Source: Dyella sp. M7H15-1 (GTDB lineage: Bacteria; Pseudomonadota; Gammaproteobacteria; Xanthomonadales; Rhodanobacteraceae). From it: DNA of 64,000 bases. Below the pieces are notes generated by a model. The model was not told the DNA's origin, did not search any database, and saw only the letters and a list, made by a program, of their open reading frames with translations. The translations under genes and the position numbers were made by a program. The stretch is from NCBI RefSeq assembly GCF_004114615.1, contig NZ_CP035300.1:930001-994000 (forward strand). The letters run 5' to 3'. Position 1 is the first letter of the stretch. Every line of letters starts with the position of its first letter. Positions 26,901 to 64,000 of this stretch are shown piece by piece.

Positions 26901-29900
26901 GATTGCCATCGGTACGGTAGCTATGACTGACGGTGACGACAGTGTCGCTCTGGGTACCTATGCATACGCAGGTACTAACGGAAGCCTGGCACTGGGGGCT
27001 TACTCTGCGGCGTTTGGCAACAACACGGTGGCTTTGGGCGCGAACTCGATCGCCGATCGTGACAACACGGTATCGGTCGGTTCGCTTGGTAACGAGCGTC
27101 AGATCACCAACGTGGCCGCCGGTACAGAAGGCACCGATGCCGTGAACAAATCCCAGCTGGATGCGCTGGGCGAAAGCATCGGTGCAGCCAGTCATTACTT
27201 TGCCGCGACGGGCCAAGGCAATGACGACGCCATCGTCAGTGGCCAATTCGCGACGGCCGCTGGCGCAGGCAGCTATGCCACAGGCGTCGGCGCATCGGCT
27301 TTTGGCAGCGGCACCAATGCCATCGGCGATCAGTCCACCGCCATCGGCTACGGCACCGCGGTGGTGGGTACGCAAAGCATGGCAGTGGGTAGCAATAACA
27401 ACGTCACTGGCAATTACTCCACCGCTGTCGGCAATGCTCAACAGGTGTCGGGTAACTATGTCACTGCCATCGGGCAACAGGCCAATATCAACAGCGACTT
27501 CGCCAGTACGCTGGGCGGATGGAACTACGTAGGCACAAATTCATCCGACGCCGTCGCTTTGGGTTCATTGGCCAGTGTGGGCAACAACTCCTTCAACAGC
27601 ATCGCTGTCGGAACATACGCCGCTGTTGGCAACAATGCCCAGAATTCGATCGCAATGGGTACGTTGAGCTACGCCGGCTCGAACTACGCCACCGCGATCG
27701 GCGGCACGGCCGTCGATTTCCAACACGGGCTCATTCGCAGCACGATGGTCACCGGTGCGCAAGGCGTAGCGCTGGGCAGTGGTGCTTGGGCCACGGGCGA
27801 TTTTGGCGTGGCCCTTGGCAACTTCAGCACGGTAGCGGCGAACAATGCCGTGGCTCTGGGCGCTTTCTCGCTGGCAGATCGAGACAACAGCGTGTCGGTA
27901 GGCAGCGCGGGCAACGAACGCCAGATCACCAACGTCGCTGCCGGTACATTGGGCACCGACGCCGTGAACAAGAACCAATTAGACGAAGTGGCTGCGCAGG
28001 CGGGTACGACCCATAAGTACTTCAAGGCCAATGGCAGCGATTTCCTGTTCGACGACGCACTGCTCGATGGTGCGTATACGACGGCGGCAGGTGCTAGCAG
28101 TTCGGCAAGCGGTACAGGTGCCTCGGCATTCGGTCACTATGCCTTGGCCGATGGTGCCGGTGCCTCAGCCATGGGCGAAAACTCGACTGCGCAAGGCGAG
28201 GCCAGTGTAGCGGTTGGCAAAGACAGCAACGCCCATGGCGATAACACCATTGCAGTCGGTGGTGAGGCCCGCGCCTTGGCGAATGCCACGACGGCGGTAG
28301 GTGCACAAAGCATAGCCGCAGGTATCGGTGCCAGTGCTTATGGCCAAGGCAGCATTGCGGCCGGCGATGCCAGCGTGGCGTTAGGCCAGGGCTCGCAGAG
28401 CTTTGGTTTCGGTAATACGGCTGTCGGTTCGCACGCCAGGGCCGACGCCGATCAGGCAGCGACCGCGCTGGGTGCACTCAGCACGGCATCCGGTGACGGC
28501 TCCACAGCCATCGGCGGCTTGGCCAGCAGCATCGGAGCGGGCAGTCTAGCGGCAGGTTTTGATGCCGTCAGCTGGGGTGAGGCGTCAGTGGCGTTGGGTG
28601 CTCGCAGCGCTGCCGTGGGCCAGTTCAGCCTGGCGCTCGGCAATGGCGCTATTGCCAACTACAACAACAGCATCGCGCTGGGCCACAACAGCTACACCAA
28701 TGGCTCGGACGCCATTGCCGTCGGTGTCGATACTGGCGCACGCGCGCAATATTCGGTAGCGATCGGCACCGGCAATGACGAACCCGTCTACGCGGACATC
28801 CAAGCCGGCGTTTCCGAAACAGGCTACGGTTCGATTGCCCTGGGCAGGGGCGCAGCAGTTGGCAACAATGCTGTCGCATCCGTCGCCATGGGTCTCGGCG
28901 CAACTGTAAATCATGGTGCCGAGCAGGGTATCGCCATCGGTACGGCTTCCTATGCCGGCGCGATGCAATCCATCGCCATTGGCGGCATCACTGCGACAGA
29001 TACCGAGCTGCTTCGGACCAATGCCGCCACGGGGTATGGCTCAATTGCCTTAGGTGCAGGCGCCCAGGCATTAGAAAAAGACAGCGTTACTTTGGGTAGA
29101 GCTAGTGGTGCCGTTGCCGCGAACGCCGTGGCCCTCGGCGCTTTCTCCATCGCAGATCGCGCTAACACCGTATCGGTCGGTTCGGTAGGCAATGAGCGTC
29201 AGATCACCAACGTCGCTGCCGGTACGCAGGGCACCGACGCGGTGAACGTGGACCAGCTCAACACAGCTATCGGCGATAGCGCCACCAACAAGTATTTCAA
29301 GGCCACGGGAGTCACCGATACGGTTGATCCGTTCGACGGTGCCATCGCCAAGGGCGATCAAGCTGTAGCAGCCGGTAGCTACAGCTATGCCGAGGGAAAT
29401 AAGTCAGTGGCCGTTGGCCTGAACAGCCACGCCGCCGCTATCGATTCGATGGCCCTGGGTGCCGACAGCATCGCCAAGGGCGCGGGTGGCGTTGCCGTGG
29501 GTGCGCATGCAGTCGCAGATGCTTACGCCGCGGCAGTAGGCTCCAATGCGCAAGCACGCAATGTCGGCACACTGGCTTTGGGTGCGGAATCCCTGGCTAC
29601 CGGCAATCGCTCGACGGCCGTAGGCATGAACAGCCAGGCCTCGGGTGAGCAAAGTATCGCCAGTGGCTATGGCAGCACAGCGACCGGCTTGCAGACTAGT
29701 GCTTTGGGTGCCAATAGTCTGGCCAGTGGTTTCTTCGCTTCAGCGTTTGGCGCACATGCGGTCGCTTCGGGTGATTTCAGCAGCGCAATGGGTGTTGGCA
29801 GCGAGGCGTCGGCTGATGGAACCACCGCGATGGGCTCGCTATCTTCCGCATCAGGCGACTTCAGCACAGCTGTTGGCTCACTGGCGTATAGCAGTGGCCT

Positions 29901-32900
29901 CAGATCGGTCGCAGTGGGCAACCATGTTTTTGCGGAAGGTGATGGAAGCATCGCGATAGGTGGGCAATATGTGCCGCCACCGGATGGCAGCGGGATTCTC
30001 GTGTCTACGCAGGCACTGGGGCGAAATGGAATCGCTATCGGTGGTAGTGCCGTGGCCAATGTCGACGATGGCGTCGCCTTGGGTGCACTGGCGCAGGCTT
30101 CCGCAACCAATTCGGTAGCGTTGGGTACCGGCTCGCAGGCCGTTCGGGAAAACACCGTTTCAGTGGGCTATGAAGGCGCTGAACGCCAAATCACCAACGT
30201 CGCTGCCGGTACATTGGGCACCGACGCCGTGAACAAGAACCAGTTGGACGAAGTGGCTGCGCAGGCGGGTACTACGAATAAGTACTTCAAGGCCAACGGC
30301 AGCGATCTCCTGTTCGACGACGCACTACTCGATGGCGCGTTTACAACGGCCGCCGGCTCCGCTAGTTCGGCTTCTGGCACAGGTGCCACGGCCGTTGGTC
30401 ATTACGCCTTGGCCGATGGTGCCGGCGCAGCCGCCTTCGGTGAAAACACCACGGCACAAGGCAATGCTGCCGTTGCCGTCGGCAGGGACAGCCAAGCCCG
30501 TGGCAACAACAGTGTGGCGATAGGTGCACAAGCAGCCAGCGGGGAAAGTGCAACTGCCATAGGCAATAATGCGCAAGCGTTACCGCAGTCCAGCATCGCC
30601 TTCGGTACTAACGCGTTCGCGGGAGACGTGAATGCCATTGCCCTCGGGAAAGGCGCCAATGCAGGCAACCTCAATGCGATGGCGCTTGGTTCGCGCAGCC
30701 AGGCGTGGGGCAACGGCTCCACAGCGATTGGCTATACAGCCACGGCATACGGCAATTCGGCCACCGCCCTGGGTTATTACAGCGGCGCACAGGGTGACTT
30801 CAGCTTGGCATTGGGCCGCGCGGTCTCGGATCGCTCGGGAGGTATTGCTGCTGGTAATTTCGCGTACTCTTATGGTGCGAATGCAACGGCGATCGGTACG
30901 AACGCTTCCTCGGGTGGAAACGACTCGGTAGCTCTGGGGTCAGACGCAGCGACTCATGCTTTGGCGACGGGTTCGGTTGCCATTGGCAACAGCGCCTGGG
31001 CCACAGACAGGGCTGCCGACGGCATTTCGATTGGAACGTACGCCACGGCAGACGGCTATGCTGCCCTATCCCTTGGGTATGCAAGCTACGCAAACTCCGA
31101 CTATTCCATCGCCATGGGCTACCAGGCGCACGCTTTGGCGGATAACGCTGTAGCACTTGGCACCCACTCTGTTGCCGACCGATCCAATACGATTTCCGTT
31201 GGCTCGCAAGGCAACGAACGCCAGATCACCAACGTCGCTGCCGGTACGCAAAGCACCGACGCAGTGAACAAGTCGCAGCTCGATGACGTGGCTAGCCAGA
31301 TCGGTACTTCCAACAAGTACTTCAAGGCCAACGGCGACGGCAACGACGATGCCATTGCCCAAGGCGACTACGCCACTGCTGCGGGTTCGGGTAGCTATGC
31401 CAAGGGCACCGGTGCATCGGCCTTCGGTAGTGGTGCCTCCGCCATCGGTGATTTCAGCGTTGCAAGTGGCTATGGCAGCACGGCGTTCGGAGACTTCGGC
31501 GTTGCGATCGGCAATTCGGCGGTCAGCGAATATGGCGCAGGTATTGCTATAGGACACCAGTCCTATGTGGGCGGAAACGGTGTGGCCATCGGCGTTCAGA
31601 GTCTGGCTGCGGGGATGCAGGCGACAGCTGTCGGCGAACGGGCTCAAGCTTCGAGCCAGGGAACCACGGCTGTAGGTATGGGGGCTAGTGCCTCTGATCT
31701 GGCAGCTTCCGCGTTCGGTGCTGGTAGCGAAGCCAGCGGTGGCTACAGTACTGCGGCAGGTTTCGCTTCGACTGCTTCCGGCACCAGTGCGACAGCGTTC
31801 GGTACGGGCTCTAACGCCTCAGGCCATTTAAGCACCGCCATCGGCAGGTCTTCGCGGTCGATCGGTTTCTACGCGACCGCAGTCGGCTACAACACCCAAG
31901 CCAATGAGTCAGGCAGTGCATTCGGTTCCGAGAGTTGGGCGCAAGGCAACCAAAGCACTGCATTGGGTTTCAATTCCTGGGGTGTTAACGACAATTCCAC
32001 TGCCGTCGGTGCAAACGCCTGGGCTAAGGCTGATAACAGTGTGGCCTTGGGTCAAGGCTCCTTGGCGGATCGTGCGAACTCCGTATCCGTCGGTGCTGCA
32101 CACGACTGGACGGGGCTGGATGGCACCGTGTACAAAGCCACCAATCGCCAGATCACCAACGTCGCTGCCGGTACGCAAGGCACAGATGCGGTGAATGTGA
32201 ATCAGCTCAATGCCGCCGTCGGTGATGGCAGCACTAATCGCTACTTCAAAGCCGATGGCGCCAACAATGGCACCGATGATGCTCACACTAGCGGCGTGCA
32301 GGCTGTCGCTAGCGGTGCCAACGCCAAAGCACAATCCGACGGTGCGGTGGCGTTGGGCGGGTCAAGCACGGCAGCTACCGCGAATAGTGTGGCCATTGGC
32401 TTCAACTCAGGGGCCAGAGGCAATGCAAGCGTAGCGTTGGGCGCCTACAGCGAGGCCAATGCATTCAATAGCGTTGCATTGGGTGCTGGCAGTATCGCCG
32501 ACCGCAACAGCACTGTGTCGGTGGGTAAGGTGGGTGCCGAACGGCAGATCACCAACGTTGCCGCAGGTACGGCCGATACCGATGCCGTCAACGTCGCCCA
32601 GCTGAAATCTGCTGGACTGCTCGATAGCTCGGGTAATGCGATGGATGGAGTGAGCTATGACACGGGAAGCGACAGGCGCACTGTCACGTTGGGCGGTGGA
32701 CAGCAAGGCACCACATTGAGCAATGTGTCCGCGGGTCTTGGCGCCATGGATGCCGTCAACGTCGGCCAGATGGAGTCCGTGGCGGATGCCATCGGCGGCG
32801 GCATGAAGATGGGTGCCAACGGCATGTTCTCCCAAGCTAACTTCACCATCCTCGGCGCTACGTATCACAACGCGGGCGATGCATTCAATGCGTTGAATGG

Positions 32901-33606
32901 CGCCGTGGACAATGCATTGGGTCAGATCGGCAGCCTGGATCAGCGCGTCAGCTCAATCGAAACTGGCAGCTCTAGTCCTAGCGGTGGCAATAGCAGCGGG
33001 AGCGGTAGTTCGAACCCTGGTACCGGCGGCAACCTTGTGATGGGTGGCGATAGCAACTCGGTAGCCATCGGCGATGGCTCCTCGACGGATCGTCCCAATA
33101 CGGTGTCTGTGGGTAATCCAGGCAACGAACGTCAGATCGCCAACGTTGCAGCAGGCGTCAACGCGACCGATGCGGTGAATGTTGGCCAGATGACGGAAGC
33201 CACGCAACAAGCCATCACTGCCGCCCAGTCCTACGCCGACCAGGCCGGTGCGAATGCCTTGAGCTCCGCCAACGCCTATACCGACCAGAAGGTCGCGAAT
33301 CTTGTCACCAAAGACAACTTCGACGCCTTCAAGCAATCGGTGGATGACCAGTTCCACCGGGTCAACACGCGCATTAATCGCGTCGGTGCGATGGGTGCGG
33401 CGATGGCCGGCATGGCAGGCGCCATTGCCGCAGCGCCAGGTACAGACAACCGTGTCAGTGCAGCGGCTGGCACTTATGGTGGCGAGGGAGCATTGGCTGT
33501 CGGCCTGTCACGTCGCATCGGTGGCAACGGTGCTGTGCTGGTTGGTGGCTCGGTGGCTGGCGGCGGTGAAGCCAGCGGCACCATCGGCGTCAGCTTCGGC
33601 TGGTAA
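23989..33606 (+). CDS. Giant trimeric autotransporter adhesin (YadA/XadA type)
   Basis: This is a 3205-residue surface adhesin. It starts with an extended signal peptide (MNKIYSKIWSTSLGAVVVAS), with a hydrophobic core at about 43-57 and cleavage near residue 61. Almost the whole length is left-handed beta-roll head repeats of the pattern (S/T)(T/V)A(L/I/V)G..(A/S).A, broken by twelve neck (HIM) motifs of the type VSVG..GNERQITNVAAGT.GTDAVN. Necks lie near nt 24515, 25250, 26241, 27101, 27921, 29200, 30187, 31221, 32145, 32545, 32715 and 33135. A short coiled-coil stalk (about nt 33190-33370) leads to the YadA anchor, ending GTIGVSFGW. ATG 23989 has ggaaaggac upstream. Close internal copies suggest growth by recombination. 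Attachment to surfaces or hosts is the family role. Confidence 0.95.
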   Translation: MNKIYSKIWSTSLGAVVVASELASNKTVVCKGTDPRGAHTLLRCALAALVSMALLPAAAQAAVCSGSFVIGTEPVAADTAFACGANADATGKYSTALGNDAIALGKYATAVGYSAQARGTDSVALGHDAMARGKASMALGQDSSATANNSVALGAGSTANQVNTVSVGSTDIKRRITNVDDAVDAYDAVNKRQLDALADSTSDAQHYFKANGNEDGSDDAKAVGTTATAAGANSLAQGNNSTAMGVYANAAAEESTAVGSNSSARGNSSVAVGSNAQALGKFATATGTLSKARGNGSVATGLAAQADGADSLAQGSYASASGSGSIAVGAESRARAIGSIAVGADAWAYGVNSVALGSISFANAEEATALGTNAWALAAQSTAVGANSLAQGINSVALGSGAMADRDNTVSVGSAGNERQITNVAAGTQGTDAVNLKQLNAAVGDGSTNRYFKANGDGNDDAIVGGKYATAAGSDSFAQGEGSSAFGSGANAIDDYGTAVGYGSTSMGNQSTALGSFSQAVADGATAIGANATANGEQSLALGDRANASYYNAMAIGTNASSTSWASIAMGLNSQADGVRSIAIGESAQASNGLGNVAIGWASKATNFEATAIGSAAWATGYNTLAAGSGAWALGNNATAVGAGAGSADTVDEITAVGSNARANGYRNTVVGAGSYAASWAPQSTVIGANAFSFASHGTAIGESSEVAYGADRSVALGSGSYADRPNSVSVGAASSWVDGYGVTHNAITRQITNVAAGTQATDAVNKSQLDEVAGQVSGINKYFKASGDDGLFDEALLDGAHTTAAGSGSIAGANEASAFGYRAAAVGLASTAAGNNSTASGDHSVSVGSDSIAKGFYSSAFGSNSQASGVWSSALGANALAQGGNATAIGAQTQAIGEESTALGAQSFATNRGAVAIGEYAGAMGDLSTAIGAQARAYGDGSIAFGSFYACPDGQICSFDDGAQSYGRNSIAIGTVAMTDGDDSVALGTYAYAGTNGSLALGAYSAAFGNNTVALGANSIADRDNTVSVGSLGNERQITNVAAGTEGTDAVNKSQLDALGESIGAASHYFAATGQGNDDAIVSGQFATAAGAGSYATGVGASAFGSGTNAIGDQSTAIGYGTAVVGTQSMAVGSNNNVTGNYSTAVGNAQQVSGNYVTAIGQQANINSDFASTLGGWNYVGTNSSDAVALGSLASVGNNSFNSIAVGTYAAVGNNAQNSIAMGTLSYAGSNYATAIGGTAVDFQHGLIRSTMVTGAQGVALGSGAWATGDFGVALGNFSTVAANNAVALGAFSLADRDNSVSVGSAGNERQITNVAAGTLGTDAVNKNQLDEVAAQAGTTHKYFKANGSDFLFDDALLDGAYTTAAGASSSASGTGASAFGHYALADGAGASAMGENSTAQGEASVAVGKDSNAHGDNTIAVGGEARALANATTAVGAQSIAAGIGASAYGQGSIAAGDASVALGQGSQSFGFGNTAVGSHARADADQAATALGALSTASGDGSTAIGGLASSIGAGSLAAGFDAVSWGEASVALGARSAAVGQFSLALGNGAIANYNNSIALGHNSYTNGSDAIAVGVDTGARAQYSVAIGTGNDEPVYADIQAGVSETGYGSIALGRGAAVGNNAVASVAMGLGATVNHGAEQGIAIGTASYAGAMQSIAIGGITATDTELLRTNAATGYGSIALGAGAQALEKDSVTLGRASGAVAANAVALGAFSIADRANTVSVGSVGNERQITNVAAGTQGTDAVNVDQLNTAIGDSATNKYFKATGVTDTVDPFDGAIAKGDQAVAAGSYSYAEGNKSVAVGLNSHAAAIDSMALGADSIAKGAGGVAVGAHAVADAYAAAVGSNAQARNVGTLALGAESLATGNRSTAVGMNSQASGEQSIASGYGSTATGLQTSALGANSLASGFFASAFGAHAVASGDFSSAMGVGSEASADGTTAMGSLSSASGDFSTAVGSLAYSSGLRSVAVGNHVFAEGDGSIAIGGQYVPPPDGSGILVSTQALGRNGIAIGGSAVANVDDGVALGALAQASATNSVALGTGSQAVRENTVSVGYEGAERQITNVAAGTLGTDAVNKNQLDEVAAQAGTTNKYFKANGSDLLFDDALLDGAFTTAAGSASSASGTGATAVGHYALADGAGAAAFGENTTAQGNAAVAVGRDSQARGNNSVAIGAQAASGESATAIGNNAQALPQSSIAFGTNAFAGDVNAIALGKGANAGNLNAMALGSRSQAWGNGSTAIGYTATAYGNSATALGYYSGAQGDFSLALGRAVSDRSGGIAAGNFAYSYGANATAIGTNASSGGNDSVALGSDAATHALATGSVAIGNSAWATDRAADGISIGTYATADGYAALSLGYASYANSDYSIAMGYQAHALADNAVALGTHSVADRSNTISVGSQGNERQITNVAAGTQSTDAVNKSQLDDVASQIGTSNKYFKANGDGNDDAIAQGDYATAAGSGSYAKGTGASAFGSGASAIGDFSVASGYGSTAFGDFGVAIGNSAVSEYGAGIAIGHQSYVGGNGVAIGVQSLAAGMQATAVGERAQASSQGTTAVGMGASASDLAASAFGAGSEASGGYSTAAGFASTASGTSATAFGTGSNASGHLSTAIGRSSRSIGFYATAVGYNTQANESGSAFGSESWAQGNQSTALGFNSWGVNDNSTAVGANAWAKADNSVALGQGSLADRANSVSVGAAHDWTGLDGTVYKATNRQITNVAAGTQGTDAVNVNQLNAAVGDGSTNRYFKADGANNGTDDAHTSGVQAVASGANAKAQSDGAVALGGSSTAATANSVAIGFNSGARGNASVALGAYSEANAFNSVALGAGSIADRNSTVSVGKVGAERQITNVAAGTADTDAVNVAQLKSAGLLDSSGNAMDGVSYDTGSDRRTVTLGGGQQGTTLSNVSAGLGAMDAVNVGQMESVADAIGGGMKMGANGMFSQANFTILGATYHNAGDAFNALNGAVDNALGQIGSLDQRVSSIETGSSSPSGGNSSGSGSSNPGTGGNLVMGGDSNSVAIGDGSSTDRPNTVSVGNPGNERQIANVAAGVNATDAVNVGQMTEATQQAITAAQSYADQAGANALSSANAYTDQKVANLVTKDNFDAFKQSVDDQFHRVNTRINRVGAMGAAMAGMAGAIAAAPGTDNRVSAAAGTYGGEGALAVGLSRRIGGNGAVLVGGSVAGGGEASGTIGVSFGW
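27921..28200 (+). repeat. Long internal repeat of the adhesin gene, copy 1
   Basis: The DNA from the neck through GTDAVNKNQLDEVAAQAG and FDDALLDGA to ALADGAGA is almost identical to 30185-30464, about 2265 bp downstream. Differences are mostly single bases, including silent third positions. Confidence 0.8.
30185..30464 (+). repeat. Long internal repeat of the adhesin gene, copy 2
   Basis: This is the partner of 27921-28200. The high nucleotide identity, compared with the looser similarity of other neck-head units, points to a recent duplication or gene conversion. Confidence 0.8.
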
Positions 33607-54365: not shown

Positions 54366-56654
54366 ATGAATCCAGCTAACGAGCCATCGAACATCATTAA
54401 TCTGAGCGACCGACTGGATCCCTCCAGCGGCCGTGGAGGAGACCTGTTGAATGCCGTCCGCCATATCGCCACGCGCCGCCTGCAGCAATATGTCGGCAAC
54501 ATGTTCGAGCATGTGGACGACACCCTGTTCGATCTGGCTGAAAAAGCCGAGAACAATGCCGCGCAGATGCATTACTTCGACGGCATGCGCGAGGTGCGCA
54601 AGCGCCGCCCAGTCATTGAACGCCATTTTCTGGCCCAGGTATCGCACGAGCTGAGCGATTTCGTCAGCGGGCACCGCTACCCCCCAAGCAGCACGCCCGC
54701 CCCGTTGGCCGGTTCGATCGAATTGTCATTGGTCGCCGACAACGAGCTGGAAGAATCGCTGGCCATCACCAGCATGATTGGCAAAAACGAAACCCGTCTC
54801 ACCCGCGATCTGTTCGCGGTAAACCAGCGACTGTCGGTGATCTGCGGTGGCGCGAAGATCGAGGATGCCACCAACCCGATCGGCCCCGCCCTGCTGGCCC
54901 AGGCATTCCGCCAGTCGATGCGCGAACTCAGCGCCGACATGCGTGTCAAGTTGATCATCTACAAGTTGTTCGATCGCTATGTCATGGCCGCGCTGGACGA
55001 GCTGTACCAGGAGACCAGCGGCGAACTGATGCGTGCTGGCGTATTGCCGCAATTGCGTCACGAAGTGGTGCGCCCAGGCGGTTCCGCGAGTGGTGCCGGC
55101 GCAGCAGCCGGAGCCGCTGACGACAACGGAGCTCCGATCGCTGCGGATGACAGTGAGGCATCTGCCGAACTGCTACAGACACTGCGTACCCTGTTCGGTG
55201 CGCGGCGCGCACATCCGAATGTGCCGCTGTCGGCCATCACCCAGGGACCGTTGCCGACCGCTAACGAGTTGATCGGCGCACTCAGCGTGCTGCAAAGCCA
55301 GGCCGCCACCGTGCCGCTGGCCCCGTTGTCCATGGGCACCAGCATGCTGGATCTCACCCAGCAGGTGCTGCAGCTCAAGGAGCAGCTCCTGTCGCAACTT
55401 AGCTCCCTACGAGGCCAACGCCCCGGCCAGGTCGCGACGATGGACGAAGACACCATCGACCTGGTTGGCATGCTGTTCGAGTTCATTCTCGAAGACCGCA
55501 ACCTGCCGCCGCAGATGCAGGTGATGCTGGCGCGTCTGCAGATTCCTTATCTCAAAGCCGCCATCCTCGACCGCAAGCTGTTTGCGCATCGCCAGCATCC
55601 GGCGCGTCGCCTACTGGATGGCCTGGCCGAAGCGGCCAAGAGCTGGTCGGAAGAATCCGACCGCGATGGCCGGCTGCACGACACCATCAAGGCCATCGTC
55701 GAACGCCTGCTACAGGAGTTCGACGATGACATGACCATCTTCGATCGCTTGTACGCCGAGCTACAGCAATTCCAGGAAGCCAATCGTCGCCGCGCCGAAC
55801 TGACCGAGCAACGCGTGGCCGAATCCACCCGCGGTCGCGAAAAGCTCGAGCAGGCGCGTCGTCGCGCCGCACGCGAAATTCTCAGCCGTGTCGGCGATCA
55901 CGTGTTGCCACCGCTGATCCATGGGGTGCTGTCGCGCGCCTGGGCGAATTACATGGTGCTCACCATCTTGCGCAGGGGTGAAGAATCTTCCGAACTCCGC
56001 GAAGCACTGCGTTTTGTCGATGCCTTTATCGCCAGCACCAAGTCGGTGCGCACGCCCGAAGCCAAGCGCGACCTGCGCCAGTTGCTGCCGGGCATAGAGC
56101 AAGCGCTGCGCAAAGGCTTGGCCAACGTGGCTTTCCAGGACGCCGATATCGAGCGTCTGCTTAGCCAGTTGCACACCTACTATCGCCAGCAGTTGGGCGA
56201 AGTGGCGCCAGTTACCAAACAGCCGCAGACAGCCGAAGCCACGCTGTCGCCGCTGCCGATTCCGGAAAGCATCCAGCCGCTGGCCGAAAGCATGGCCGAC
56301 CTGGAAGACGATCCAGCCAATGCCGAACCCGAAGCTGCGGCGATCGCGCCGGAAGTGCGTGAAGAACTCGAACGCATCAACGCGCTCAAACCCGGCAGCT
56401 GGCTGGAATTCAATAGCGAAGGCGACCACTTCGAACGCGCCAAGCTGTCGTGGATCAGCCCGATGAGCGGCCGCTACCTGTTTGTCAATCGGCGCGGCCT
56501 CAAGGTGGCGGATTATTCGCCGTACGAACTCGCCACAGTGATGGTCGATGGTCACGCCCGCATCCTTGCATCGAACGCGCTGTTCGATCGTGCGATGGAT
56601 GCTATCGTTGATCGACTGAGCCATGAAGACGCTCGCCCCAACGATACCGAATGA
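54366..56654 (+). CDS. DUF1631 protein with C-terminal PilZ-like domain
   Basis: This 762-residue cytoplasmic protein matches DUF1631, sometimes wrongly called thymidine phosphorylase. It is mostly helical: RLDPSSGRGGDLLNAVRHIA, RRLQQYVGNMFEHVDDTLFD, LKLIIYKLFDRYVMAALDEL-like segments and a charged coiled coil near 480-520 (RRRAELTEQRVAESTRGREK). The last ~80 residues (GSWLEFNSEGDHFERAKLSW, YLFVNRRGLKVADYS) resemble the beta-barrel of PilZ domains. The RxxxR/DxSxxG c-di-GMP motif is not evident. A link to c-di-GMP signalling is therefore only a hint. The nadC start overlaps its stop (ATGA). Confidence 0.82.
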   Translation: MNPANEPSNIINLSDRLDPSSGRGGDLLNAVRHIATRRLQQYVGNMFEHVDDTLFDLAEKAENNAAQMHYFDGMREVRKRRPVIERHFLAQVSHELSDFVSGHRYPPSSTPAPLAGSIELSLVADNELEESLAITSMIGKNETRLTRDLFAVNQRLSVICGGAKIEDATNPIGPALLAQAFRQSMRELSADMRVKLIIYKLFDRYVMAALDELYQETSGELMRAGVLPQLRHEVVRPGGSASGAGAAAGAADDNGAPIAADDSEASAELLQTLRTLFGARRAHPNVPLSAITQGPLPTANELIGALSVLQSQAATVPLAPLSMGTSMLDLTQQVLQLKEQLLSQLSSLRGQRPGQVATMDEDTIDLVGMLFEFILEDRNLPPQMQVMLARLQIPYLKAAILDRKLFAHRQHPARRLLDGLAEAAKSWSEESDRDGRLHDTIKAIVERLLQEFDDDMTIFDRLYAELQQFQEANRRRAELTEQRVAESTRGREKLEQARRRAAREILSRVGDHVLPPLIHGVLSRAWANYMVLTILRRGEESSELREALRFVDAFIASTKSVRTPEAKRDLRQLLPGIEQALRKGLANVAFQDADIERLLSQLHTYYRQQLGEVAPVTKQPQTAEATLSPLPIPESIQPLAESMADLEDDPANAEPEAAAIAPEVREELERINALKPGSWLEFNSEGDHFERAKLSWISPMSGRYLFVNRRGLKVADYSPYELATVMVDGHARILASNALFDRAMDAIVDRLSHEDARPNDTE

Positions 56655-57508
56655 GTACTGCGCTTCGCTTCACTCCGCCAGACCAAGCCGTTATCCATGC
56701 CGATGTGGAACGTGCCTTTGCCGAGGATCTTGGCAAAGGCGACGCCACTGCTAGCCTGTTGTCCGCCGATGCCAAGGCCACTGCGCAACTCATCTGTCGC
56801 GAAGACGCGGTGATCGCAGGCATTCCGTGGTTCAACGCTGCCGTTCGCAAGCTCGATCCAGAAGCGCGGATCGACTGGAACGTCAGCGACGGCGACCGCG
56901 CTACACCGGGCACGGTGATCTGCGAAGTACACGGCAACGCACGCGCACTGCTGAGCGCCGAACGCACTTCGCTCAACTTCCTGCAATTGCTATCTGGCAC
57001 CGCCACCCACACCGCCGCCCACGTGGCTGCCGTGGCCGGCACCAAGGTATGCGTGCTCGACACCCGCAAAACCATACCCGGCCTGCGTCTGGCGCAGAAA
57101 TATGCGGTGCTTTGCGGTGGCGGTCATAACCATCGCATCGGTCTGTACGACGCGATCCTGGTAAAAGAAAACCACATCATTGCTGCCGGCAGCATTGCCG
57201 CCGCCGTTAAGGCAGCCCGCAAACTTCACCCCTCTCTGTTGTTGGAAGTGGAAGTGGAAAACCTCAACGAGCTGCAGCAGGCACTGGATGCCGGCGTGGA
57301 CCGCATCATGCTGGACAACTTCACCTTGCCACTGATTCGCGAAGCCGTAACACAGACAGCAGGACGCGTACCGCTGGAGATTTCCGGCAACGTCGATCTC
57401 AACACCATTGGCGACTACGCCCGTACTGGTGTCGATTACATCTCGGTCGGGGCATTGACCAAGCACGTGCGGGCCATCGATCTTTCGTTGCGATTGAAAG
57501 TTCACTGA
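56651..57508 (+). CDS. nadC: Nicotinate-nucleotide pyrophosphorylase
   Basis: NadC converts quinolinate and PRPP to nicotinate mononucleotide in NAD synthesis. The 285-residue protein shows TSLNFLQLLSGTATHTAAHV, the signature VLDTRKTIPGLRLAQKYAV, then KENHI and the end GVDYISVGALTKHV. The ATG overlaps the DUF1631 stop. All catalytic-site motifs look normal. Confidence 0.96.
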   Translation: MSTALRFTPPDQAVIHADVERAFAEDLGKGDATASLLSADAKATAQLICREDAVIAGIPWFNAAVRKLDPEARIDWNVSDGDRATPGTVICEVHGNARALLSAERTSLNFLQLLSGTATHTAAHVAAVAGTKVCVLDTRKTIPGLRLAQKYAVLCGGGHNHRIGLYDAILVKENHIIAAGSIAAAVKAARKLHPSLLLEVEVENLNELQQALDAGVDRIMLDNFTLPLIREAVTQTAGRVPLEISGNVDLNTIGDYARTGVDYISVGALTKHVRAIDLSLRLKVH

Positions 57509-57545: not shown

Positions 57546-57962
57546 ATGGGCGACTTCGCTACCCTCTTCCTATTGTTCGTTCTTGTCACCATTATTGGGA
57601 CATGGCTGCGGCTTAGCCGTGCCCGGGACCAGGCGATCCATGAAGCACGCTCACGCTGCCAGCAGCACGGCTTGCAATTGCTGGACGAAACCGTAGGGCT
57701 AAGCGGATGGCGTTGGCGTCGCTTTGGTGACCAGCACGTGGTGGAGCGGCGCTACAGTTTCGAGGTAAGCATCGATGGTGACGACCGGAAAGCCGGTCAT
57801 CTGTGGATGATGGGCAATACGCTTACAGCGCTGATTTTGCCCACCCTCGAGTTGTATACACCCGAACCAACCGAACACACCGCTGAACAGAAACAGGCTG
57901 CCACCGGCGGAAACGTGCTGCCGTTTCGACCTCGAAGCTGCGATCGCGATATACGTCACTGA
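57546..57962 (+). CDS. DUF3301 membrane protein with an altered C-terminus
   Basis: This 138-residue protein has one N-terminal TM segment (about 4-20) and a DUF3301 core: QAIHEARSRCQQHGLQLLDE, GLSGWRWRRFGDQHVVERRY, and a C-terminal NVLPFRPR. Homologues usually end within a few residues of PFRP. Here the frame runs on as SCDRDIRH into DNA that belongs to a broken IS5-type transposase, so an insertion has replaced the original stop. Function is unknown. It closes the DUF1631-nadC cluster and marks the left edge of the accessory island. Confidence 0.8.
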   Translation: MGDFATLFLLFVLVTIIGTWLRLSRARDQAIHEARSRCQQHGLQLLDETVGLSGWRWRRFGDQHVVERRYSFEVSIDGDDRKAGHLWMMGNTLTALILPTLELYTPEPTEHTAEQKQAATGGNVLPFRPRSCDRDIRH

Positions 57963-58150
57963 CCACGCATTTTCGGTCGCCCGTGGCGCTTCCCGATGGT
58001 AGTTTTGGCGCAGCCTCAGGCCCGTGTCGGTCGGCCGCTTTCACCAGATGTTCCCGGCACCGCTCCAGAAGACGCGAGTCCGCCGGGTGCGCCACGGCCT
58101 TCTCCATCATCGTGGTATCCACGATCACTCCCAAAGCAAGCGTGCATGCG
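57962..58150 (-). mobile_element. IS5-type transposase, internal fragment
   Basis: On the minus strand the DNA encodes VIVDTTMMEKAVAHPADSRL, then LERCREHLVKAADRHG. A frameshift leads to LRLRQNYHREAPRATEN. This is the catalytic-domain core of IS5-family transposases (VDTTVQ.KA..HPTDS.L, then LRQ.Y.R.AP). Both ends are missing. It runs opposite to the N-terminal fragment at 58351. Confidence 0.75.
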
Positions 58151-58350
58151 GGTTACGAGTCGGGAGCTCACGGAATCAGGTTGACATTACACCGCTAGGC
58201 GGCGTAGTGTTTCTTTACATAAATTTTCGACAAGTCGTCCGGGAAGCGACCTTGTGATCCTAAAGCTAAGACTGCTCTGATTTATTCACCACCCTTTTTT
58301 TCTGGCGTCTTAATGCCGTCACCCAAATCTACCTCGTTACGAAGCAAACC
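58151..58350. other. Gap between IS5 fragments
   Basis: AT-richer DNA with no recognisable gene or terminal inverted repeat. Confidence 0.4.
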
Positions 58351-58525
58351 ATGTTCGCCTCACTGGTCTACAGCACCAAGAAGCGGCAGACGCGCCGCGA
58401 GAAGTTTCTAGAGCAGGTGGTGCCCTAAAAGTGTTAGAGAAGCTGATCGAGCTGAACTACCCGAGAGAAGGACGCCGAGGTTGCTACCGATGCCGCTAGA
58501 CACCATGGTGCGCTTTCACTTCCTT
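58351..58525 (+). mobile_element. IS5-type transposase, N-terminal fragment
   Basis: From 58351 the plus strand reads MFASLVYSTKKRQTRREKFL, then EQVVP and a TAA. After a shift it continues KLIELNYPREGRRG, then MPLDTMVRFHF after another shift. These match the start of IS5-family transposases (TRREKFL.EM..VVPW..L..LI.PHYP...GRPP.PL.TMLRIHFLQ). At least two frameshifts and a stop make it dead. Confidence 0.75.
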
Positions 58526-58570
58526 TAGCAGCACACTTCCAGGCCACTTTATTATTTCCGATAGATTGTC

Positions 58571-59362
58571 GTGGGCGAATACATAGATATCTACCGGCGT
58601 GCCCTTTACTACGACATCGTGTTCCAACGCGATGTCAGCGGCGAAGTGCAGTTCCTCACTGATCTCTATTCCTGCCAAAACGGTCGGCCGTTGCGCAGCA
58701 TGGTCGATATCGCTTGCGGGCCCGGCTACCACGCCAAGGCGTTCGCGGCGCGCGGTATTCAGGCCTATGCACTCGATCTGCAGCCGGAGATGATCGAATT
58801 CGCCCGAGGGCTCGAGCCGCAAACGAACGGGCTTATCGATTATTTCGCGTGCGATATGCGTGACTTCACGTTGCCTGCGCCGGTCGATCTCGCGCTCAAC
58901 AGCTTCGACAGCATTGACTGCCTGGAGACGCAAGAGCAGATCATCAATCACTTCCGCACGGTAGCAACCAACCTGACGCCGGGCGGCCTCTACGTCATCG
59001 AGCTCACCCATCCGCGTGATTGCTCGATGTGGGATTACGGCAATTTCCAATACAAGGGTGAACGTGACGGCGTCCGCGTGGTGATCGATTGGGCGGTCAA
59101 CAAGCCAAGCGCCGATCCATTGACTCAAGTTGTCGAATGCGAGGTAGTGATGACGGTCAATGAGTATGGCGAGCGCAAGGTTTTTCGCGAGCAGGCCCGC
59201 GAGCGCTTTACCACGTTCCAGGAGTTTTCCGCACTCGCCAAGCTGTCGGGAGCCATGAGCTTGCTCGACTGCTATGGTGATTACCGGCTCGACCAGCCTT
59301 TCGACAATAGTCACGACGCGCGGCGCATGGTCATCGTGCTGCAAGCAAACAAGACGTCATAG
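58571..59362 (+). CDS. Class I SAM-dependent methyltransferase
   Basis: This 263-residue Rossmann methyltransferase has motif I as MVDIACGPGYHAKAFAARGI (about 44-63), motif II acidic residue in YALDLQPEMIEFA, and motif IV in LALNSFDSIDC. It reads as a small-molecule or protein methyltransferase; the target is unknown. GTG 58571 is the only possible start, since a TAG lies two codons upstream, and no strong ribosome site precedes it. The SET-domain gene starts 2 bp after its stop. Broken IS5 copies lie immediately upstream. Confidence 0.82.
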   Translation: MGEYIDIYRRALYYDIVFQRDVSGEVQFLTDLYSCQNGRPLRSMVDIACGPGYHAKAFAARGIQAYALDLQPEMIEFARGLEPQTNGLIDYFACDMRDFTLPAPVDLALNSFDSIDCLETQEQIINHFRTVATNLTPGGLYVIELTHPRDCSMWDYGNFQYKGERDGVRVVIDWAVNKPSADPLTQVVECEVVMTVNEYGERKVFREQARERFTTFQEFSALAKLSGAMSLLDCYGDYRLDQPFDNSHDARRMVIVLQANKTS

Positions 59363-59364
59363 CC

Positions 59365-59937
59365 GTGCACTACCTCGCTGACGGCCTCGTAGTGAGAGAA
59401 CTCCTCGGCAAAGGCGGCAAAGGCGTATTCGCAGCGCGGCGGCTCGAGCTTCACGAGCTGCTGTGCATTTGGGGCGGCGTTATCATGACGAGTGATGAGT
59501 TACGGCGCCTGACGCGCGAGGAGCAGTTCTACGCAATGCAGATCGAGGACTACCTACACCTCGTAACTCCGCGCGATAGCGTCGCTGGCGCCGACTTCAT
59601 CAATCACTCGTGCCAGCCCAATGCCGGCCTCTCCGGCGCCAGCAGTCTTGTGACGCTTCGGCGTATCGAGCCGGGCGAGGAGATCTGCTTCGACTATGCA
59701 ATGTGCGACTCGCACGATTTGTTGAGCTTCGCATGCGAATGTGGCGCGCCAAACTGTCGCAAATTCGTCCGCCCGGACGACTGGCGGCGACCTGATTTGC
59801 AACGCCGCTACCCCAACTCGTTCTCGCCCTATCTGAGCCGGCGCATCGTCGCGGAGGCGTCAAGTCACCGTCTTGCGCAGCCGACGCACCAGCGCGGCGC
59901 AGAGCTGCATCAGGACGGCAGGGCGCTGCTCGATTAA
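59365..59937 (+). CDS. SET-domain lysine methyltransferase, eukaryotic type
   Basis: This 190-residue protein has a compact SET domain: GKGGKGVFAARRLELHELLC, the cofactor/pseudoknot motif DFINHSCQPNAG (NHSC at 80-83), and GEEICFDYAMC. A post-SET zinc cluster CECGAPNC (Cys124, 126, 131) follows. These are the features of histone-lysine methyltransferases, rare in bacteria and known mainly from Chlamydiae, Legionella and scattered others. The start is GTG 59365. The last ~25 codons overlap the 3' end of the convergent translocase-like gene and lack SET character. A bacterial substrate (ribosomal or DNA-binding protein) or a host protein could be the target. Confidence 0.83.
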   Translation: MHYLADGLVVRELLGKGGKGVFAARRLELHELLCIWGGVIMTSDELRRLTREEQFYAMQIEDYLHLVTPRDSVAGADFINHSCQPNAGLSGASSLVTLRRIEPGEEICFDYAMCDSHDLLSFACECGAPNCRKFVRPDDWRRPDLQRRYPNSFSPYLSRRIVAEASSHRLAQPTHQRGAELHQDGRALLD

Positions 59938-62900
59938 GTTGTGGAAACGGTCGCGTGTGATCACCAGCATCTCGACGTCATCGAGCGCCGAAACCGTCGC
60001 CAAGCGCGGCTCGTTGTCAAACAACGACATCTCGCCGAAAAATTCACCTATACCGAGCCGAGCGAGTTCCCGGTTGCCGTCCGGCGTCTGCTTGCGCACG
60101 ACGACTTCGCCCCGATAGACGATGTACATGCGGTCGCCGGCCTCACCCTCGGTGACGATGTTCTCGCCCTGTAGATAAGTTTCGCAGGTAAGCGTGCGGT
60201 CGAGCACGATAAGGTCGTCGAACGTGGTATCGGAAAACAGCGGCACGGAGTGAAGGAACGCAATACGACTCATCGTGGCTTCCTGTCGGTATGGGCGATC
60301 TTCGGTGCCTCCCTGTATCAGGCTGCGGACGGCATCGGCGACCAGTTGCGAAGAGTCCGCCCATGCGCTTGGCGGAATGTCACCGGTCTCGGCGTGCCAG
60401 GCAATTACCGCCGCGGCTCGCAGGCGCTCATCGTCGATAGCCTGGGCGTCACGGAGAATGAGCAGTGTCTGATCGCGATCGAGCTTGCCGGATCCAGCCA
60501 CACGCTCTTCCAACAGCGGCGCCAACGGCACCACGAACTGCCGGTGTGGCAGCGTCGCCAAACTCTCGATCGCGTTGGCGCGAGTGCGTTCGTCGGAGGC
60601 CCTCAGTGCGGTACGCGCGAGATTGAGGGTGCGGTGATGGCCGAGCGCTTCGAGGGCTTGCAGCACCAGACGAAGCACGCGGCGCGTGCTGTCGTCGATC
60701 ACGAACGACATCGACTGCCAGCCGGGGCGCTTGGCGTCGCAATGCTGTGCGAACCGCCGGTAGAGCGCAATCAAGGGAAACTTCGTGGTCTCCAGCATCT
60801 CTAACAGGTTTTGCTCGGCGTCGGCGCCCTGGATGCGGCCGAGCGCCTCAATAGCGGCAAGCTGCGCCTCCTCGCGCCCGTTCCACAATTGCGCATTCAA
60901 GGACGGTAGCGCGTCCTTACCGCGGATACTGAGCGTTTCGACAACAGCTTGGCGGACACGGGAGGAGGGATCTGTCCAAGCGACGTCAAGTACCTCGTTT
61001 AGTTCGTCAGTCGGAACCATCTGCGCCAGAACGCGCAGTGCCGATTCACGTACTCCTGGCGAGTCGTCGGATGCCGCGCGTCGCGCCCAGTTCAGGGTGT
61101 TGGCGGTGTGGGCTTTGAACGATCCCACTGCGTTCAATGCGGTGGCACGCACTTGGCCGTCGCCGTGAGCACCAAACAACGACAGTATCTCACCAGCGCT
61201 TTCGCTGTCGCAGAATCGCAGCACCCCGATGGCGCCGAGCGCGGATTCCGGCTTCAGTGGCCGGCCCAGCACGGCGAGAGCCGTTGCATTGCTCGGCTCG
61301 GCGCAAAGAAGCGTCGCGGCGGCTACACTGCGAATGCCTTCATCAGGATCGTCCATTAGTGCGTCGAGGTCGCCGGGATGCAGCCTAGTGCACCTCGCCA
61401 ACACCTCGAGCGCGAGCTGACGCACCGCAGGGATCGGCGAGCGTGCCAGCTCCTCGAAGGTCTTATGCCGCGCGGGCGTCACCGAAACCGTTAGGCGCTC
61501 CATGATGGCTCGGCCCTGACCAATCGGGATCGCTGCCAGCGCTGGAGCGATCTCGTCGGTGCCGAACTCGTGGTTGCACCACAGCGCCATCTGTAGCGCG
61601 GCATAGGCGGTACGCGAATCGCTGCGTAGCATGGTGCGGATCTCGGCGATGGTTTCCGGCGGCAGGCGGATGGCGCGGTCGACATTCTCGAAGTCGACGA
61701 CGCCGTCACGGAGCATGTCGAGTAAGCCGCGGACGTAGTGGATCCCAATATACCAGTGAATGACGAACAGCAGCAGGCTTTCGACAAAGCCAATCTGCGC
61801 GATGGTGCGCAGACTTAGACCGCGCTGGAAGGCCTCCAGCGACACGCCGGCGAAAGCCAGCCCGAGTGGATAAACGAAGCCGTCGATGAAGACGCGCACG
61901 CGTCCGACCAGTCGGTAACGGATTGCGTTGTAGTTCATGATCCCGACCGGCACGTCGATCCCATAAACGAACGGGTCGTAGGCAATGTTGGCCAGGACTC
62001 CGGCCGGCAGCGAGGTGGAGACCGACAGCACGCCGAAAGACAGCGTGTTTAATGCGGGATAGACGCGATTCATGACAACAACGCCAAGCCTTGTCATCTG
62101 CCGATCGGTAAAGGCGACGATGATGACGAAGCCGAGCAGATTGAGACCTCCCTGAATGAACCCCAGGAAGGTCGCCAGCCGGTCAATGCTGGGAAAGTGC
62201 AGGGTGTAGATCGAGAATGCCAGATATTCTGATACGCATTGCAGGAACACGTTGAGAAACATCGCCGCGGCCAGGAGGGAAACCAGCGGGTAGCGCCGCA
62301 GGAGCCGAGGCATCAGGCGTAGGCTCTCCTCAGCAGTCGGCTCGACGTCTTCGAGTGGTTGATGCCGCCGCGACAACCAGGCGAAATATGCAATCACCAC
62401 AAGCACCAGCGCAGGCGTCAACAACAAGGCGATGCGGGGGCCTGCGAACGCGTTGACGGAACCAACGCCGGCGCCGCCAATCAGCCCGCCCAAGGCCATG
62501 CCAACGGCGACACGCCCGATAGCGCGCTTGGCGTCGGTGACGCTGAAATAGTCGGCGAACAGCACGTAATAGATGCTGTACAGTAGCTGCTCGCACACCG
62601 AGATGCCCAGATAGACGACGTAGTACCAGCTGTCGCCGAGTCTGAGCACGGCCGACATCGTTAGGCTTACGAGCACGAATACGCCGAGCATAAACTTGAG
62701 GATCACGCGGCGGGGGAAGCGATCGATAATTCCCGACAGCATGATCGAACACGGAATCGAGATCGCGGCAAACAAGACGTAGTAAATGGGGATCGCCGAG
62801 ACGCCGAACCGCGACAGGAACAACGACGCTGCCAGCGTCGACGCGTAGGTGTTCTGCGTCGCCAGCAGGAACGCCATTATCATGAAATGCCCGGCACGTC

Positions 62901-62955
62901 CGCCGAAATGTGCGGCTGTCGCTGCCACGGCGTTTCGCGCCAACGCCTTCGTCAT
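59860..62955 (-). CDS. ATP/ADP-translocase-like membrane protein with HEAT repeats and cNMP-binding domain
   Basis: This is a 1031-residue three-part protein. Residues about 20-435 form a 10-12-TM domain resembling the nucleotide transporter (NTT/TlcA) superfamily, with YASTLAASLFLSRFGVSAIP and YYVLFADYFSVTDAKRAIGR. Residues about 455-870 are HEAT-type alpha repeats (for example IPAVRQLALEVLAR, SPGVRESALRVLAQM, SSRVRQAVVETLSI). Residues about 895-1031 form a cyclic-nucleotide-binding domain with the phosphate cassette FFGEMSLFDNEPRLATV. Fusions of this kind exist in some free-living bacteria; nucleotide exchange by them is not proven. It is convergent with the SET gene, overlapping by 78 bp. 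IS481 debris lies upstream. Confidence 0.85.
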   Translation of the reverse strand: MTKALARNAVAATAAHFGGRAGHFMIMAFLLATQNTYASTLAASLFLSRFGVSAIPIYYVLFAAISIPCSIMLSGIIDRFPRRVILKFMLGVFVLVSLTMSAVLRLGDSWYYVVYLGISVCEQLLYSIYYVLFADYFSVTDAKRAIGRVAVGMALGGLIGGAGVGSVNAFAGPRIALLLTPALVLVVIAYFAWLSRRHQPLEDVEPTAEESLRLMPRLLRRYPLVSLLAAAMFLNVFLQCVSEYLAFSIYTLHFPSIDRLATFLGFIQGGLNLLGFVIIVAFTDRQMTRLGVVVMNRVYPALNTLSFGVLSVSTSLPAGVLANIAYDPFVYGIDVPVGIMNYNAIRYRLVGRVRVFIDGFVYPLGLAFAGVSLEAFQRGLSLRTIAQIGFVESLLLFVIHWYIGIHYVRGLLDMLRDGVVDFENVDRAIRLPPETIAEIRTMLRSDSRTAYAALQMALWCNHEFGTDEIAPALAAIPIGQGRAIMERLTVSVTPARHKTFEELARSPIPAVRQLALEVLARCTRLHPGDLDALMDDPDEGIRSVAAATLLCAEPSNATALAVLGRPLKPESALGAIGVLRFCDSESAGEILSLFGAHGDGQVRATALNAVGSFKAHTANTLNWARRAASDDSPGVRESALRVLAQMVPTDELNEVLDVAWTDPSSRVRQAVVETLSIRGKDALPSLNAQLWNGREEAQLAAIEALGRIQGADAEQNLLEMLETTKFPLIALYRRFAQHCDAKRPGWQSMSFVIDDSTRRVLRLVLQALEALGHHRTLNLARTALRASDERTRANAIESLATLPHRQFVVPLAPLLEERVAGSGKLDRDQTLLILRDAQAIDDERLRAAAVIAWHAETGDIPPSAWADSSQLVADAVRSLIQGGTEDRPYRQEATMSRIAFLHSVPLFSDTTFDDLIVLDRTLTCETYLQGENIVTEGEAGDRMYIVYRGEVVVRKQTPDGNRELARLGIGEFFGEMSLFDNEPRLATVSALDDVEMLVITRDRFHNLIEQRPAVLMQLCAALVRRLRKTVT

Positions 62956-63020
62956 TGCCGGAGTCCGATCGCAGGATTCGCCCTGCGGAGTGGCGGAACT
63001 GCCGAGACTGATACTATCAT

Positions 63021-63070
63021 CCTAGTGCCGAATGGAGAATCTATTCCTAGTGCCGAATGGAGAATCTATT
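63021..63070. repeat. Perfect 25-bp tandem repeat
   Basis: Two exact head-to-tail copies at 63021-63045 and 63046-63070, starting cctagtgccgaatggag and ending aatctatt, followed by a third partial ctag. It lies 66 bp upstream of the translocase-like start codon. Confidence 0.95.
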
Positions 63071-63102
63071 CTAGTTCTGAGGCGTTCTGGCTTTAAGTGT
63101 AG

Positions 63103-63609
63103 AAGTATGGCCGGGTACGTGTTAGCAACGAATAACGCCAGCGCGGCACGTTTGTCAGCCCGTCCGGTGTGCGCTCCATCTGGTTAAGGCATCAGCTGGC
63201 TAACTTCAAGCAACGGCTCCGTGCCCTGGAAAAACACGTTGCCTAAAGTGACGCGGTGCTCACGGAGGCCCAGGTGGTAGCGCTGGAAAGGAAGTCTGAC
63301 GATGATGTGGCATGTGGCGAAATCGAAACCGCGCATCCTGGTTATCTTGGCTCACAGGACACGTTTTATGTTGGCACCCTGAAAGGTGTTGGTCGTATTT
63401 ATCAACAGACCTATGTCGACACCTACAGCAAGGTAGCCTTTGCCAAACTACATCCCACCAAGACGCCAATTACCGCTGCCGACTTGTTGAACGACAAGGT
63501 GTTGCCATTCTTTGCAGCGAGTGATGTTCCCGTGCTTCGTGTCCTGACTGACTGTGGCAAGGAATTCTGCGGCAAGCTGGAGCAGCATGATTACCCGTTG
63601 TATCTGGCG
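63103..63609 (+). mobile_element. IS481-type transposase pseudogene
   Basis: In one frame from 63103 the DNA reads KYGRVRVSNE*RQRGTFVSP, then SGVRSIWLRHQLANFKQRLR and ALEKHVA*SDAVLTEAQ. After that comes GYLGSQDTFYVGTLKGVGRI, YQQTYVDTYSKVAFAKLHPT and VLTDCGKEFCGKLEQHDY. This is the helix-turn-helix and most of the DDE domain of IS481-family transposases. Stops at 63133 and 63244 disable it, and similarity ends at 63609 before the last catalytic Glu. The N-terminus is missing too. Confidence 0.85.
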
Positions 63610-63741
63610 ACGTTTGTTCGACGACAACATCCTACCAACACGAATCAGCCTTTTTCTTTTATTTTCAATGCTGTGCGTCAGCCCCGAAATTCGCTGGGCC
63701 TTAAGTTTAGTGCCATTAGCCTTAACGCCCCTCAACACGCC
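63610..63741. other. Unassigned DNA after the IS481 remnant
   Basis: The transposase frame stays open to 63948 but the translation after 63609 has no family character. I see nothing else here. Confidence 0.4.
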
Positions 63742-64000
63742 TTAGTAATCAGCGAGCTTATGTGGCTTGGGCCGATGCCGGTCCCGCGACTTGGACTTAT
63801 CGGGTCGATGCACAAAAGTTCGTCGTGCAATAAGGCCGAGCACGTCATGGAGTCGGTTGCAAATGTCATACCCCAACAGGAGCACCGACAGCACCGGCCG
63901 GAAAGCCGTCATCGCGTAGGTGCGATTGATCCTATGTTTTTCCGGTAAGCTGGCTTCTTTATAAGCCTTGGCGGCGACCAGCACGTGCAGATTGTCGCAC
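63742..64000 (-). CDS. Hypothetical protein, N-terminus beyond the window
   Basis: An open minus-strand frame runs from the window edge to 63742 (about 85 codons). It includes VAAKAYKEASLPEKHRINRT, then AMTAFRPVLSVLLLGYDICN, and a basic tail ending KPHKLADY. I do not recognise it. A single hydrophobic stretch (PVLSVLLLGY) is the only feature. Given the neighbouring IS481 debris it may be part of another mobile element or a pseudogene. Confidence 0.35.
   Translation of the reverse strand, partial: CDNLHVLVAAKAYKEASLPEKHRINRTYAMTAFRPVLSVLLLGYDICNRLHDVLGLIARRTFVHRPDKSKSRDRHRPKPHKLADY

Follow-up and report, generated by a model that had tools for sequence, protein, structure and literature searches.

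Do three intact genes that lie side by side between decayed insertion sequences (IS) work together, or do they only share a place? We examined this question in a stretch of 64,000 nucleotides from Dyella sp. M7H15-1 (positions 930,001 to 994,000 of contig NZ_CP035300.1; hereafter the window), which contains genes for a methyltransferase (MT), a SET-domain methyltransferase (SET) and a large membrane protein (MEM). The original prediction had seen in them a cargo island, possibly transferred jointly from bacteria living in amoebae, with a host- or nucleotide-linked function. We consider it probable (roughly 70%) that the three genes are unrelated cargo on an old island that also carries a VirB/D4 type IV secretion system (T4SS), and that they form no conserved system. 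The three genes were neighbours in no other locus examined, and the nearest kin of SET and MEM differ.

Three intact genes at the left end of an island

MT (58571-59362, plus strand; 263 aa, GTG start) is a class I S-adenosylmethionine (SAM)-dependent methyltransferase by Pfam (Methyltransf_25, 2.9e-11). SET (59365-59937, plus strand; 190 aa, GTG start; PF00856, 2.9e-13) begins 2 bp beyond the stop side of MT, and MEM (59860-62955, minus strand; 1031 aa, ATG start) faces it from the opposite strand, an arrangement that the original prediction had described correctly. The frames of SET and MEM overlap tail to tail (i.e., at their 3' ends) by 78 bp (59860-59937), such that SET codons 166-190 are antisense to the end of MEM. 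All three genes are intact and flanked by IS5 and IS481 remnants. Together they make up the left end of an insertion of ~21.65 kb that is missing at this site in 8 of 8 congeners examined.

No recurrence of the trio in the loci examined

To our first question, the neighbourhoods of relatives gave a clear negative. Relatives of SET were collected as 58 loci (40-52% identity) by one scan of genome contigs with six exact peptide patterns, which missed other SET loci. They come from Anaerolineae and other Chloroflexota, from Actinomycetota, and from one Deltaproteobacteria-titled entry (placed in Myxococcota); some bear doubtful organism names (metagenome-assembled genomes titled Bifidobacterium breve or Mycobacterium), which we kept as recorded. 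Neither MT nor an NTT-HEAT gene (i.e., a nucleotide-transporter-type membrane domain with HEAT repeats, as proposed for MEM) was found in the flanks of any of the 58 loci (up to 10 kb per side, many shortened by contig ends), using both BLAST at 1e-3 and profile searches. At 5 of the 58, an open reading frame (ORF) matched the cyclic-nucleotide (cNMP) domain of MEM only, about 5.6-5.8 kb off. The neighbours that recurred in Anaerolineae differed from MT and MEM, e.g., a pair of genes that we read from their sequences as presumably protein-kinase-like and HflX-like.

The reverse comparison started from NTT loci in Myxococcota, 80 of which were taken from a longer list (1,027 kb of flanking DNA in total; 55 of the loci have 3 kb or more on each side). 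SET was found near none of the 80, and a generic methyltransferase near one, with a weak match (1.4e-4). As a control, the SET profile recovered the SETs of loci L071, L073, L074, L076 and L077 and of all 16 loci L004-L019, 17 of which were outside the profile and four inside it (L071, L074, L076 and the window's own in L077). SET and MT were likewise absent around the NTT-HEAT genes of genomes G464 (19 kb), G891 and G890 (12 kb each). Literature searches, aimed at the single families, listed no title or abstract opening that described the trio as a set. We thus rejected a conserved three-gene system on the counts of 0/58 SET loci and 0/80 NTT loci, the nearest approach to it being genome G515, with SET and NTT but without MT. 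A joint function of the trio, as put forward in the original prediction, is without support.

SET and MEM have different nearest kin

We built a tree of 89 SET rows, comprising 57 of the 58 relatives, 27 of 29 family loci, 4 others and the window SET (L136 was left out as too short, and L021 and L028 as too long or not found). The clade that contains the window SET (40 rows; 100/98) is otherwise one of Chloroflexota SETs, joined by the Myxococcota row and a very long Leptospira row; 26 SETs of the window SET's own family group apart from it (100/99). The branch of the window SET is long (1.64), several rows including this one drew a long-branch warning, and its exact place is unsure. SET-type matches are present in 115 of 147 family genomes (its own included), the best non-self one reaching 35% identity; the same genome holds an ordinary SET copy at C1:726679.

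SET may owe its last 25 residues to a joining of the two genes, upon which its frame ran into the end of MEM, although this is only a hint. Codon 166 is where the SET frame enters the MEM gene (59860), and the tblastn matches of 29 of the 58 relatives stop at or before residue 164. The other 29 continue to 167-189, and the relatives also have variable tails, which weakens this reading. For a clean mosaic joint at the overlap, the sign is thus weak.

The Pfam matches of MEM are cNMP_binding (1.1e-23), HEAT_2 (2.2e-19) and MFS_1 (4.2e-13), and together with its relatives these place an NTT/MFS-type membrane domain at about residues 25-410 (hydrophobic stretches span residues 44 to 412), the best HEAT match at 596-675 and the cNMP-binding domain at 926-1010. 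The sequence of the latter is FGEMSLFDNEPRLATV, in which the Glu/Arg pattern may mark an intact cyclic-nucleotide pocket. Of the fusion proposed earlier, the HEAT and cNMP parts thus stand on Pfam, while the NTT label holds, on sequence comparison, only via relatives. Specifically, the TLC family (PF03219) gave no reported match to MEM alone, either for the whole protein (E≤0.1) or for residues 1-430 (E≤5, with Pfam filters dropping most matches above 0.1), and residues 1-430 matched MFS_1 at 8e-14; searched alone against PDB, MEM found no carrier. By contrast, TLC was matched by 2 of 5 aligned members (best 3.9e-10), and a five-row membrane-domain profile (MEM and 4 relatives) had an ADP,ATP carrier (9j3n, 1e-12) as its sole PDB match at E≤1. 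Within the MFS fold, MEM thus seems related by descent to the NTTs, though at a great distance from the canonical family, in which four charged residues (K155, E245, E385 and K527) have been described (PMC4256464).

We searched for MEM in 147 family, 369 class and 398 phylum genomes, as well as in 20 of the 58 SET-locus genomes, 251 Chloroflexota and 376 genomes of the Myxococcota phylum; the class of G515 (48 genomes) was searched with the G515 protein. No full-length orthologue was among the matches listed for the family, which covered the cNMP domain only or a weak MFS stretch. One other match in the class passed 1e-30 (G464), and 8 others in the phylum passed 1e-20, 7 in the cNMP region only and that of G515 in the membrane-HEAT part. 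Near full-length homologues of similar length (22-27% identity) were found in G515, in Chloroflexota (G891 and G890) and in many Myxococcota. The membrane-domain profile matched 207 of the 376 Myxococcota-phylum genomes at 1e-12. At the 80 Myxococcota NTT loci, 68 ORFs matched MEM at 1e-10; by BLAST with MEM's cNMP domain, 63 of these loci carry the domain as part of the fusion and 4 have it in an adjacent ORF. MEM formed the longest branch (2.61), without a firm position, in a quick tree built from 85 membrane domains (with no single-domain NTT outgroup). The two trees proposed in the original prediction differ in outcome, setting SET apart from the family SETs, with Chloroflexota, and leaving MEM as a lone long branch; such differing kin speak for unrelated cargo.

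MT resembles small-molecule and peptide methyltransferases, matching methyltransferases in PDB to 5.8e-16. Among 144 family genomes (E≤1e-8) it has weak partial matches in three other genomes (32-35%) and none in any of the 10 listed congeners. No full-length orthologue of MEM is listed for the family, the best non-self SET there reaches 35%, MT has three weak matches and the insertion is missing from all 8 congeners examined; inheritance of the genes within the family thus does not look vertical, in line with the transfer that the original prediction called plausible.

The source named for that transfer fared worse. If SET and NTT had come jointly from a chlamydia-like symbiont of amoebae, the existence of NTT-HEAT fusions in Chlamydiae (PMC5381601) would fit, but none of the 58 SET loci bears a chlamydial title (the searches for MEM did not cover Chlamydiae), and the nearest kin of the two proteins differ. 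We regard such a joint transfer as extremely improbable. For SET itself, the 58 titles and the tree with Chloroflexota led us to reject a chlamydial origin.

Observations that favour a link between the genes

Several observations weigh against the cargo reading. In G515, which belongs to another class of the same phylum, genes for an NTT-HEAT protein with a cyclic-nucleotide-binding domain (cNBD), a LysA/Orn-type pyridoxal phosphate (PLP) decarboxylase and a SET protein stand in a row on one strand (L076 7116-12263). SET lay beside NTT-HEAT in 2 of 3 Pseudomonadota loci seen vs. 0 of 82 others. Chloroflexota genome G891 has both a SET of 52% identity (L080) and the sole MEM match at 1e-30 among the 251 Chloroflexota genomes, the latter on another contig than its SET. 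Three frames have stayed open beside decayed IS elements, and since they are intact there, selection may hold the trio. Finally, the GC content and codon use of the genes are host-like, with no sign of recent arrival, and no relaxase was among the 14 island ORFs scanned, so that the mobility of the island is putative.

The G515 cluster hints at a sulfonium pathway that has a dedicated carrier. BurB is a SET-type enzyme that turns methionine into S-methylmethionine (PMC12542666, PMC7496086), and it is the best PDB match of the G515 SET (7.8e-13), which lies outside the clade of the window SET. The window genes could by analogy form a new methyl/sulfonium module, in which a BurB-like SET makes S-methylmethionine, MT methylates a metabolite related to it and MEM carries the charged product, controlled by a cyclic nucleotide. 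In favour of this, BurB shows that a SET enzyme of the required kind exists (PMC12542666), the window SET family has BurB among its PDB matches (8.1e-16), and G515 does pair an NTT-HEAT-cNBD protein with a decarboxylase and a BurB-like SET. BurB is, however, not the closest solved SET to the window family, whose profile matches KMT2A better (2.9e-20), and no G515-like decarboxylase ORF (E≤1e-5) was found at the 58 SET loci or at L071-L074, L077 and L078. The window SET also has Asn in its NHSC motif where BurB has Leu, but, as the G515 SET has Asn as well, the position is no help in telling the two types apart. Overall, we consider a sulfonium module in the window unlikely.

A related reading, in which SET enzymes and NTT-HEAT-cNBD carriers are true partners in some Pseudomonadota, with SET making a charged methylated metabolite (e.g., S-methylmethionine) and a cyclic-nucleotide-gated carrier moving it, appears very unlikely to us. 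If true, this partnership would provide the first substrate for a widespread, uncharacterised carrier family.

Given that KMT2A is nearer than BurB and that both are matched, a protein and a small molecule are both possible substrates of SET, which keeps the catalytic Tyr, the NHSC motif and the post-SET cysteines. A separate SET locus, on a Paraburkholderia phenoliruptrix plasmid (L071 5854-7416), encodes a fusion of SET with a HAD hydrolase, next to genes for an aminotransferase and a DMT transporter, which is a further sign that SETs of bacteria may have small-molecule substrates.

The island, its composition and its secretion operon

Having weighed these points, we return to the reading of the trio as unrelated cargo and to the island that carries it. 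The insertion measures ~21,650 bp (about C1:987963 to C1:1009612 of the genome; its left part covers window positions 57963-64000 and it continues beyond the window end) and lies between a DUF3301 gene and an sspB-like gene. Its left conserved flank consists of nadC (56651-57508, plus strand; Pfam QRPTase) and the DUF3301 gene (57546-57962, plus strand; Pfam DUF3301), which are syntenic in 8 of 8 congeners examined; these regions were compared after 16 genomes of the genus had been searched for nadC. The genes that follow in the congeners we take, from their sequences, to be sspB, sspA and cytochrome bc1 genes. Homology to the 8 congeners ends at 57865-57971 and restarts at window-equivalent positions 79606-79613, the best-resolved comparisons giving a break at 57962 and a return at 79613. 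Two of the 8 have further alignment gaps to the right of the insertion, and one (L171) has about 1.9 kb of different DNA at the site.

From left to right, the island consists of the IS5 remnant, the trio, the IS481 remnant and then mostly a type IV secretion operon. The IS5-family remnant (57982-58128) is 82.3% similar over 147 bp to plasmid DNA annotated as IS5 family transposase, and the IS481-family remnant (63114-63609) 72% over 496 bp to an IS481 transposase, values that bear out the earlier description, as do the coordinates and domains of the three genes. An ORF at 63256-63948 has a partial, weak match to rve (2.3e-5, under the Pfam cut-off).

No compositional mark of recent transfer was found in GC content or codon use. 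GC is 0.576 in MT, 0.621 in SET and 0.617 in MEM vs. a range of 0.558-0.632 among 12 reference genes from the window, and codon use in the trio, as in the T4SS genes, is host-like. SET, which is also short, has the lowest codon correlation (0.57 vs. 0.70-0.97 in the reference genes). The comparison with the flanks suggested in the original prediction thus brought out no foreign signature, and the host-like composition means that the island is old or that its donor was of similar composition.

We also looked for known carriers of the island. Plasmid carriage was rejected, as 57950-64000 had no close DNA match in PLSDB; a sensitive search of the two flanks there gave only IS-type matches among the matches listed, and MEM was matched in its cNMP domain alone (4 records). 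Viral carriage was rejected as well, with IMG/VR holding no relative of MT or MEM and 6 SET loci, none with MT or NTT.

The T4SS operon, which escaped the original prediction for that reason, lies just past the window (C1:994968-1007794; L077 5968-18794) and, by Pfam and NCBIfam, encodes VirB1, B2, B3, B4, B5, B6, B8, B9, B10, B11 and VirD4 in the usual order. Among 59 sampled family genomes, the VirB4 closest to that of the island is from another genus (G021, 68%), and the G021 T4SS region (19.9 kb, ending just past VirD4) is without MT, SET and MEM. Relatives of VirB4 range from 37-68% in family genomes and 44.9-48.7% on plasmids (among the matches listed).

With a VirB/D4 operon in the same island and SET matching KMT2-type histone methyltransferases, SET and perhaps MT might be T4SS substrates that methylate proteins of a eukaryotic host, with MEM importing host nucleotides. 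This is highly improbable in our view: relatives of SET are found mostly in Anaerolineae and Actinomycetota genomes, and MEM is no canonical NTT.

Elsewhere in the window, positions 23881-33606 hold a very long ORF of 3241 aa.

Predicted roles of the three proteins

With the genes taken as unrelated cargo, each would have its own role. MEM is probably a carrier for a solute that is nucleotide-like or otherwise charged; binding of a cyclic nucleotide to the C-terminal domain would set transport, the signal probably being relayed via the HEAT solenoid. Being 2 bp apart, SET and MT are probably co-translated and would act inside the cell as SAM-dependent methylases on separate substrates, probably protein lysine or small molecules.

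In sum, this strain-specific island brings a type IV secretion operon together with genes that seem to differ in ancestry. The locus contributes a very divergent NTT-HEAT-cNBD protein and, for Lysobacterales (the order named in the original prediction), a SET enzyme of Chloroflexota type; for a three-gene system it provides a clear negative within the loci examined.

Comparison with known systems

The secretion operon has the VirB1-6, VirB8-11 and VirD4 gene order of VirB/D4 operons, and differs from them in having no relaxase among the scanned ORFs. BurB (PDB 9l4t; PMC12542666) shares the SET family, the post-SET cysteines and, by alignment with the G515 SET, the Tyr of the DY motif; it has LHSC where the window SET has NHSC, and the window family is nearer to KMT2A by profile. 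The SETs of Anaerolineae and Actinomycetota share with the window SET the NHSC, CFDYAMCD, CxCG...C and DW...SPYL motifs at 40-52% identity, while the window SET differs by its tail antisense to MEM and by its other neighbours.

Fusions of the NTT-HEAT and NTT-HEAT-cNBD kinds have been described in many bacteria, Chlamydiae and oomycetes, with their function called unknown, and NTT and NTT-HEAT genes are broadly present among free-living bacteria (PMC5381601). Major, Embley and Williams (2017) suggested that cAMP might tune ATP uptake by such proteins (PMC5381601). MEM differs from the described fusions in its low identity (22-27%), its longest branch and its match to MFS_1 and not TLC. One Chloroflexota NTT-HEAT-cNBD gene has a DUF2652/Polyketide_cyc2 gene directly upstream (L153 10584-11693), the start of which appears cyclase-like by eye, an impression of ours. 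MEM shares the domain order of the NTT-HEAT-cNBD fusions (PMC5381601), carrying an NTT-type membrane domain (as assigned through relatives), HEAT repeats and a cNMP domain in one chain, and can be aligned with them nearly end to end; judged by these features, it is a very divergent member of an already described kind.

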